DNA of 54,634 nucleotides, from contig JAJDOI010000160.1 in NCBI GenBank assembly GCA_022340245.1, positions 1-54,634 of the forward strand. Direction: 5' to 3'. Below, one piece after another: positions 4,462 to 21,553 of the stretch (its first letter is position 1; every line of letters starts with the position of its first letter). Both the position numbers and the translations under genes were made by a program. The stretch comes from Thiogranum sp. (GTDB taxonomy: Bacteria; Pseudomonadota; Gammaproteobacteria; DSM-19610). Below the pieces are notes generated by a model. It made no database searches and was not told the DNA's origin. It saw only the letters and a program-made list of their open reading frames with translations.

Positions 4462-5448
4462 ATGCGGATTGGGCCATACAAGTTGCGTAACCAATTGGTG
4501 TTGGCACCGATGGCGGGCGTAACTGACCGGCCATTTCGACAACTGTGTAAATCACTGGGCGCCGGGCTCGCTGTATCCGAGATGGTGTCCTGTAACTCGG
4601 CGCTGTGGGGCAGCAAGCAAACCCTGCGGCGTATGAATCACGACGGCGAGGTTGAACCCCGTTCCGTGCAGATTGCCGGCGCAGACCCCAAAATGATGGC
4701 CGAAGCGGCGCGTTTCAATGTTGAACGCGGCGCCCAGATCATCGACATCAATATGGGTTGCCCGGCCAAAAAAGTCTGTAATGTCATGGCGGGGTCCGCA
4801 TTGTTGCAGAATGAAAGTCTGGTCAGGCAGATCCTCGAGGCGGTCGTTACGGCTGTCGATGTGCCTGTGACTTTGAAGCTTCGCACGGGGTGGGACCCCG
4901 CGAACCGTAATGCACTCTCCGTGGCGCAGATCGCCGAACAGGCGGGCATACAGGCGTTGGCCATTCACGGGCGCACCCGCGCCTGCGGCTATAGCGGCGA
5001 GGCCGAATACCAGACAATTCGCAACGTGAAACAGGCTGTATCGATACCGGTGATTGCCAACGGCGATATCACCAGTGCCGAGAAAGCCCGACAGGTACTG
5101 GAGCAGACGGGCGCCGATGCCGTGATGATCGGACGTGCCGCACAAGGACGACCCTGGATTTTCCGAGAACTTGAACATTACATGTCCACGGGGCAGTTGT
5201 TGCCGGAGCCCGGGGCGAAGGAGATTCGCACCATCATGATTAACCATCTGAAAAATCTTTATGAATTTTACGGTGAATACACGGGCGTACGTATTGCCCG
5301 CAAGCATATTGGCTGGTACAGCAAGGGCCAGCGCAACGGCGCCGAGTTTCGCCGGCGCGTCAATCAGGTTGGCAGCGTTACAGAGCAACTCTCCATGACA
5401 CAGGCGTTTTTTGACGAACTGTGTGTCCGTTCGGAAATGGCCGCATGA
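4462..5448 (+). CDS. dusB: tRNA-dihydrouridine synthase B
   Basis: DusB is an FMN enzyme that reduces uridine in the tRNA D-loop. The 328-residue TIM-barrel protein starts [20 protein letters not shown], carries the FMN-phosphate segment and the signature [12 protein letters not shown] with its catalytic Cys, and has [13 protein letters not shown] near residue 230. I chose ATG 4462 because homologues begin MRIG. However, GAGGA at 4443-4447 is better spaced for an in-frame TTG at 4453, which would add three residues. The stop overlaps the fis start by four bases (ATGA), the classic dusB-fis coupling. Confidence 0.96.
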
Positions 5449-10100: not shown

Positions 10101-10177
10101 GGGTTGAGGTGTGGCAGTGCCTCGACTGCTTAGGGTGCGAGCACCTGCGCTGTCGAGGCACGCCCACCCCCGAACCC
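10101..10177. repeat. 77-bp palindromic element, copy A (family 2)
   Basis: 26-bp arms flank a 25-nt core (10127-10151). The inner 10 bp of the arms are perfectly paired (GTGCCTCGAC / GTCGAGGCAC) and the outer 16 bp pair at about 11 positions. The core is the reverse complement of the copy B core with a few changes. I do not recognise the family. Confidence 0.75.
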
Positions 10178-10226
10178 AACGGATACGGTGCCAGGGAATT
10201 TCTCCGTGAAGAGTTACGCCACCCCA

Positions 10227-10303
10227 GGGGTTAGGCCGGGTACAACCTCGACGGTGCATGTGCTTGCACCCTAAGCCGTCGAGGTTGTACCCGGCCTAAC
10301 CCC
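10227..10303. repeat. 77-bp palindromic element, copy B (family 2), perfect hairpin
   Basis: This is a perfect inverted repeat: the left arm begins GGGGTTAGGCCGGG and the right arm ends CCCGGCCTAACCCC. The 26-bp arms, extended by 2 bp into the core, are fully complementary. The core at 10253-10277 reads GGTGCATGTGCTTGC then ACCCTAAGCC. The element lies 49 bp from copy A, between divergent rpiA and ilvA. No U-run follows on either strand, so it does not look like a terminator. Confidence 0.85.
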
Positions 10304-10383
10304 GGCCTACGGAGCGCCTGTTACAGTCCAACTACCACACCTGTACCGCCTCTGGATCGCAGGGCCGTTCCTGGCAGGTTTCC

Positions 10384-10415
10384 GTTGGGCTTCGCTACGC
10401 TCAACCCAACCTACG
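10384..10415. repeat. Hairpin repeat family 1, single inverted unit upstream of ilvA
   Basis: GTTGGGCTTCGCTACGCTCA is followed by ACCCAACCTACG. It is a lone inverted unit without a forward partner. Together with the two 77-bp palindromes and the two promoters it accounts for most of the 483-bp rpiA-ilvA gap. Confidence 0.88.
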
Positions 10416-10460
10416 GTGGTAATCCACGGGTGGGCGTACTTAACCTAAGCCGATTGCCCG

Positions 10461-13255: not shown

Positions 13256-13442
13256 GCGCACCTTCCGCACATACCGTCGCGATTATTGCCCTTGAACCAG
13301 AGGTTCAGGTGGGAGTGAGTGACGGGCCTAAGGCTTTCCACACACGGCGGACATGCTCACTGGCCCGGCAAGCCGACTCCCGAGGACAATAATTAGGCTC
13401 AAGGAAGATCGTAACCGCTAACGCGCAGCGCAGAAGGTACGC
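13256..13442 (-). ncRNA. ssrS: 6S RNA
   Basis: 6S RNA mimics an open promoter and sequesters sigma-70 RNA polymerase in stationary phase. On the minus strand the roughly 187-nt element has a 5' end (GCGTACCTTCTGCGC) that pairs with its 3' end (GTGCGGAAGGTGCGC). It contains the conserved pieces GTGAGCATG, AAGCCTTA and the ACCTGAACC / GGTTCAAGGG hairpin found in E. coli 6S RNA in the same order. TATAAT (13453-13448) sits seven bases before the predicted 5' end, and a T5 run follows the 3' end. Its location between zapA and 5-FCL is the conserved one. Exact ends are estimates. Confidence 0.92.
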
Positions 13443-13680: not shown

Positions 13681-13757
13681 AGGGTGTGCTTTGGCAATGC
13701 CTCGACGGTGCATGCGCTCGCGCCCTAAGCCAAAAACCCTATCCCGGCCCGGCGTCG
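13681..13757. repeat. 77-bp element, copy C (family 2), decayed
   Basis: The 25-nt core at 13707-13731 (GGTGCATGCGCTCGC then GCCCTAAGCC) matches copy B at all but three positions. The left arm keeps GGCAATGCCTCGAC, as in copy A. The right arm has lost GTCGAGG but keeps ATCCCGGCC, as in copy B. Long pairing is gone; a short TTTGGC / GCCAAA pairing (13690-13695 with 13729-13734) remains. Confidence 0.65.
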
Positions 13758-21272: not shown

Positions 21273-21288
21273 CAGCCCTCAATCCCGT

Positions 21289-21477
21289 GCTGCTGCGGGA
21301 GAGCGCCGGCATCGCCGGCCGCCGAAGGCGCAACTCGCTCGGAATCGCTCAGGCAAATGGACCGTAGCAGCAGGCTTTAGCCGGATTGACTCTGGAGAGC
21401 GGCGGGGCGGCAGGCCCGGCCCACCGAAGGGGAAGGTCGCGCACCGTGGCCTACACTCTCAGGTTACCGGACAGAGG
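21289..21477 (+). promoter_or_regulatory. Tandem glycine riboswitch upstream of gcvT
   Basis: Two glycine aptamers lie in a row. Aptamer 1 (21289-21371) is closed by GCTGCTGCGG / CCGTAGCAGC and contains GGGAGAG, GCCGAAGGCGCAA and CTCAGGCAAATGGACCG. Aptamer 2 (21390-21477) is closed by CTCTG / CAGAG and contains GGAGAG, CCACCGAAGG, ACTCTCAGG and CCGGACAGAGG. These are the defining conserved pieces of the class, joined by an 18-nt linker. A GC hairpin (GCGGCGG / CCGCCGC, 21479-21501) follows and may be part of the switch. Tandem glycine riboswitches normally turn on gcv genes when glycine is plentiful, and gcvT starts 76 bp downstream. Confidence 0.93.
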
Positions 21478-21553
21478 AGCGGCGGTTTTTCCGGCCGCCG
21501 CCCTGCATTGTCCGGGCGGCGTAATACGCAACCTTCGACAGCACAGAGTCACG

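Follow-up and report, generated by a model that had tools for sequence, protein, structure and literature searches.

Short interspersed hairpin repeats confined to a Thiogranum-like genus: a family probably spread in trans, its arms probably homogenised by template switching

The window—the whole 54,634-nucleotide stretch of Thiogranum sp. DNA analysed here—is contig C46 of genome G000, a 3.41 Mb draft in 238 contigs. Within it, rpiA on the minus strand and the threonine dehydratase gene, ilvA, on the plus strand diverge from a common spacer, correctly described in the initial annotation as a divergent promoter region, and this spacer holds two 77-bp palindromes. Copy A (10101–10177, minus strand, core AGCGCAGGTGCTCGCACCCTAAGCA) and copy B (10227–10303, plus strand, core GGTGCATGTGCTTGCACCCTAAGCC), both hairpins of the beta-like type described below, are real and lie where they were originally placed. 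Their arms pair at 21 of 26 positions in A and at all 26 in B—28, a perfect stem, if the GG/CC of the core is counted—and their folding z-scores against shuffles are −5.1 and −11.8, respectively. Scored with a covariance model, A reaches 77.1 bits and B 93.8 bits, the top match of the genus. The conserved core next to CCTCGAC also holds up: with up to three mismatches allowed, core plus CCTCGAC occurs twice in the window versus never in 100 shuffles. The absence of a named family for this core was borne out as well, for none was found, Rfam included. In Rfam 15 the gathering score was reached by 6S RNA and glycine riboswitches alone, and a supposed likeness to the skipping-rope RNA motif was dropped for lack of a match there.

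The A/B site is empty in a second genome, G002. A stretch (10107–10449) that takes in the whole of B and the greater part of A is absent from the orthologous rpiA–ilvA spacer of G002, and the alignment score climbs from 156 to 299 once window positions 10106 and 10450 are joined. The edges of this stretch are uncertain by about 10 bases, and it also holds a repeat of the GTTGGGCTTCGC type.

The 25-nt core, first described as a loop, is indeed conserved, but it is not a single loop. Each unit consists of a variable outer stem of 26–33 bp, an asymmetric internal loop (GGTGCAT / CCTAAGCC), and an apical stem of 3–6 bp that co-varies (GTG/CAC, GCG/CGC, CTG/CAG) around a small loop and has six pairs in most G002 copies. 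Alignment of the copies resolves the core of B (10253–10277, plus strand) into GGTGCAT, then GTG CTTG CAC, then CCTAAGCC, and a T.G pair at the loop edge of the core is nearly constant. Among 13 aligned copies, 90.1% of pairs are standard and changes on both sides occur at 27 of 32 pairs; no shuffle of 500 matched any of these measures.

Two types make up most of the hairpins of G002: alpha (..GGTTTTT core AAAAACC..) and beta (..CTCGAT core ATCGAG..). There they occur as 19 alpha–beta pairs, 99–180 bp from core to core, forming a composite of roughly 245 bp. Alpha is flanked by AAAG...CCTGCACC and beta by GAGG...TGGGTCTGG; the conserved flank is CCTGCACCGA 3′ of alpha and TGGGTCTGG 3′ of beta, and similarity is lost some 10–20 bp outside the composite. 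A helix joining the two ends of the composite was considered and rejected, weak and poorly supported pairs being all that was found. The two cores are oriented (+,−) in 11 pairs, (+,+) in four, (−,+) in two and (−,−) in two; relative to the commonest arrangement, then, cores are inverted in 8 of the 19.

Covariance-model searching, as the initial annotation had proposed, turned up many more copies with co-varying arms. Matches number 78 in G002, 35 in G011 and 8 in G000 (both-strand duplicates included), with two each in G004, G005 and G014. Copies come to about 70 in G002, about 25 in G011, and eight in the draft genome G000. G011 has a diverged sister core, and the cores of G011, G005 and G008 are related to the one described above but different (GCGCCTTGCG...GCGCC..GAAGC); G008, from a class-wide sample, has one weak copy. 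In that sample of 274 genomes the family is absent outside the Thiogranum-like genus, an order-level search added no further genomes, and exact matches to the core in named genomes were confined to two contigs of a Thiogranum MAG. Long hairpins of this family are present in the sampled stretches of G000 and G002, and absent from those of G008, G001 and G016. A phage or plasmid origin was rejected because a plasmid search with the A/B region gave no match and because, among the viral matches inspected, seven in number, none was palindromic; the G011-type core, too, is absent from viral contigs.

Palindromes can be made by contigs that fold back on themselves during assembly, and two copies located at the starts of G002 contigs (L276 and L277) do fold back for more than 40 bp, far past the stem. 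These two very long fold-back palindromes we take as assembly artefacts that mimic long palindromes. As an account of the family, such an artefact is scarcely credible: most copies lie mid-contig with different genes on either side, and several occupy orthologous sites in independent assemblies.

A third copy, C (13681–13757, plus strand), was originally considered decayed. Its core is intact; its arms pair at only 7 of 26 positions, and it folds no better than shuffles do. Simple decay does not describe it, however, for it is a hybrid of the two hairpin types, with a beta-type left arm, the core, and an alpha-type right arm, and hence no palindrome. Since the orthologous place in G002 is occupied by an alpha+beta pair, upstream of 6S RNA, copy C reads as a collapsed pair. 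(The 6S RNA lies at 13258–13439 of the window, on the minus strand, adjoining zapA and the gene for 5-formyltetrahydrofolate cyclo-ligase.) L288, L293, L004 and L005/L006, too, combine an alpha-type arm with a beta-type arm, and hybrids of this kind fit deletion between two cores. Other rearrangements were seen as well. In the hybrid at about 960–1011 of L065, another repeat, GGATTCCGGCCTGCGCCGGAATGACGG, stands in place of the alpha side, from which it appears that distinct repeat families insert side by side; and at 4476–4650 of L071, an alpha hairpin precedes a beta half (GGCGCCCTAAGCCATCGAGGGACTACCCGACGGG) that is rearranged or truncated and lacks its left part.

The initial annotation observed that arms differ between copies and yet pair within each, and this is true on a large scale. 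In 60 full palindromes of G002, 96.3% of arm pairs are Watson–Crick, yet comparing left arms of the same type across copies gives an identity of only about 65%. Of the departures from the consensus, 318 are matched on the opposite arm and 45 are not. The same imbalance appears at orthologous sites, where the counts need no assumption of new insertion: matched changes outnumber unmatched ones by 4:1 (G004/G014), 8:1 (L092/C130) and 14:1 (the alpha hairpin of L090/L060).

Compensatory evolution by way of G-U intermediates would be expected to show a bias towards transitions and many residual wobble pairs. Instead, 176 of the matched changes are transversions and 142 transitions, and wobble pairs number only 21 among 1560. 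Template switching between the arms of an inverted repeat, on the other hand, homogenises the arms and inverts the spacer (PMC8604942), and earlier bacterial data noted in the same work found it to favour transversions. Arm homogenisation and spacer inversion are both found in this family. Because matched changes are mostly transversions, one-sided intermediates are rare, and cores are inverted, we infer that the arms are copied by template switching, which is the best reading of them and fits better than classical compensatory evolution. Co-variation had been said to indicate either a mobile hairpin element or selection on structure; the first is favoured by the many copies and variable sites, whereas co-variation is no proof of the second in the face of this signature of template switching.

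Template switching explains the paired arms, but not the near-invariant internal loop. Between alpha copies, identity is 99% in the core loop, 94% in the six innermost arm bases, and about 53–59% in the rest of the arm; the loop needs either selection or recent common descent. Nor does template switching alone predict a bias among mismatches on the core strand, of which 37 are G.T and 10 are A.C (p about 1e-4, the apical mismatches not all being independent). Together with the nearly invariable T.G pair noted above, the G.T excess suggests that the folded core strand is recognised as single-stranded DNA or RNA.

Which of these it might be is informed by where the copies lie. They are intergenic, mostly at the 3′ ends of genes: none of 46 sites surveyed falls inside a predicted gene (genes being called by a simple codon-usage score), and between genes 16 are convergent, 21 codirectional and 4 divergent. 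This distribution is what might be expected of cis-acting RNA structures—3′ UTR hairpins that protect, process or terminate transcripts, and whose arms are held together by selection with compensatory changes—as are the excess of G.T over A.C on the core strand and the retention of several sites across species. We nevertheless consider this unlikely. Where a single hairpin lies between codirectional genes, its core is sense in 6 cases and antisense in 7, a balance that speaks against a strand-specific mRNA element and favours DNA over RNA as the form in which the core strand is recognised. No T-run follows the stem; among matched changes, transversions are commoner than transitions, and there are few wobble pairs; one genome has about 70 copies versus 0–2 in congeners; and A and B themselves sit in a divergent spacer. 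An intrinsic terminator, specifically, was rejected because no T-run lies directly 3′ of the stem, and it is A-runs that follow the stems of G011.

Some sites are shared between genomes and others are not. Four sites of G000 are filled in G002, too: L090 (L060 in G002), L091 (L065), L092 (matching the broken ends of C130 and C26), and copy C (the pair upstream of 6S RNA). Three that are filled in G002 are empty in G000, namely L065_6949, L071_4476 and the spacer of a glycine riboswitch, in which G011 also has a hairpin (L085). In the window the tandem glycine riboswitch lies at 21286–21484 (plus strand), and the spacer preceding it, which contains family hairpins in G002 and G011, contains none. 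A further site is common to G004 and G014 and absent in G000. Shared and species-specific sites together imply old, inherited copies plus lineage-specific gains or losses, and the number of sites common to species implies that movement is not frequent in all lineages. Empty sites could be losses, and the spacers are too diverged between species for exact junctions or target duplications to be read.

Sites common to species, and a core loop 99% identical between alpha copies despite variable arms, might also mean that the hairpins are chromosome-organising or protein-binding sites, as proposed for REP/BIME, that are not mobile but are kept for the benefit of the host. This is quite unlikely, we think, given that some sites are species-specific and that copy number varies from about 70 to 0–2 in congeners of good completeness, an unevenness that makes an essential role improbable.

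The REP (Y1) transposase suggested in the initial annotation does not track the element. G000 and G002 have one Y1_Tnp gene each, but none was found in G004, G014, or G011, which has about 25 copies (G011 is 88% complete, and a gene could have been missed), and several congeners without copies possess one. Y2_Tnp (IS91) genes occur in most carriers, but are absent in G004 and present in several non-carriers, a distribution that points neither way. The idea that a REP-associated Y1 transposase (RAYT) moves the family in the manner of a REPIN draws on the inverted hairpin pairs with spacer, which recall REP dimers, and on the presence of Y1_Tnp in both G000 and G002. It is very doubtful in view of this distribution, the absence of a GTAG or CGTC tag, stems of 26–33 bp versus 5–13 bp in REPs (PMC3733652), and the different repeat, AAATAGGGGTCAGAG, that rings the Y1 gene of G000. 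That gene, the only RAYT-like Y1_Tnp gene of G000 (L300, in G000:C38, about 950–1930), has copies of AAATAGGGGTCAGAG and of the inverse of that repeat all around it, and AAATAGGGGTCAGAG is probably its cognate repeat. A second palindromic repeat, GTAGGTTGGGCTGAGCGCAGCGAAGCCCAAC, is frequent as well; it starts with GTAG, as known REPs do, often forms inverted pairs, and occurs in the window at 2120, 3144, 9111, 9292, 13514, 13578, 20967, 25037, 25116, 28918 and elsewhere.

Known systems resemble the family in part. REP sequences, of the GTAG and CGTC super-families, have stems of 5–13 bp, loops of 2–20 nt and the tag for which each is named (PMC3733652). Like them, these are multi-copy, intergenic, hairpin-forming palindromes, often paired and patchy between species; unlike them, their stems are 26–33 bp, it is the tip that is conserved and the stem that varies, and there is no tag. 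REPINs and BIMEs with RAYTs (PMC3116915, PMC2817692) likewise comprise two hairpins and a spacer, with no gene inside, and are presumably moved in trans; here, though, a single unit already forms a long hairpin, the two types are unlike each other, cores may face either way, and copy number is not tracked by Y1 genes. The ends of IS200/IS605 elements and the miniature elements derived from them have subterminal hairpins, one strand of which is recognised, whereas hairpin orientation varies in this family, copy number again does not follow Y1 genes, and we saw no element with a Y1 gene between such hairpins. As in MITEs, the units are small, non-coding and repeated, at sites that are empty in relatives; no autonomous partner was seen, and junctions are unreadable at this divergence. 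Mitochondrial double-hairpin elements (mentioned in PMC2800124) are also GC-rich, two-hairpinned and mobile-looking, but they are organellar. Integron attC sites keep structure while stem sequence varies, but conserve the outer boxes and vary the loop, the reverse of what is found here; attC itself (RYYYAAC ... GTTRRRY) was rejected because only copy B has GTTAGGC/GCCTAAC ends, in reverse order, and other copies do not share them. The family works like a REP/MITE element, then, yet fails the defining REP tests.

On balance we think it probable that these hairpins are an undescribed, genus-restricted family of short interspersed repeats of the REP/MITE kind, spread in trans, with arms homogenised by template switching. 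A candidate tip-recognising enzyme, probably acting on single-stranded DNA, would spread the alpha–beta composite in trans. After insertion, DNA-polymerase template switching would repeatedly make the arms identical and occasionally flip the core, so that arm sequences could drift freely while remaining paired, and deletions between cores would convert alpha–beta pairs into hybrids of the kind seen in C. Alternatively, movement itself might generate new arms and cores in either orientation, by way of a hairpin-ended single-stranded DNA intermediate that copies itself in rolling-hairpin style; this would be an enzyme class new for such a role in bacteria, and we hold it to be decidedly improbable.

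The family carries a warning. Co-variation is normally taken to prove that an RNA structure is under selection; in these hairpins a different cause is likely, the copying of arms by template switching, and palindromes should not be read as functional RNA from co-variation alone. With about 60 full hairpins in one genome, all with a fixed tip and with arms that change freely and yet match, nature has provided a series for measuring template switching and for seeking the enzyme that recognises the tip.
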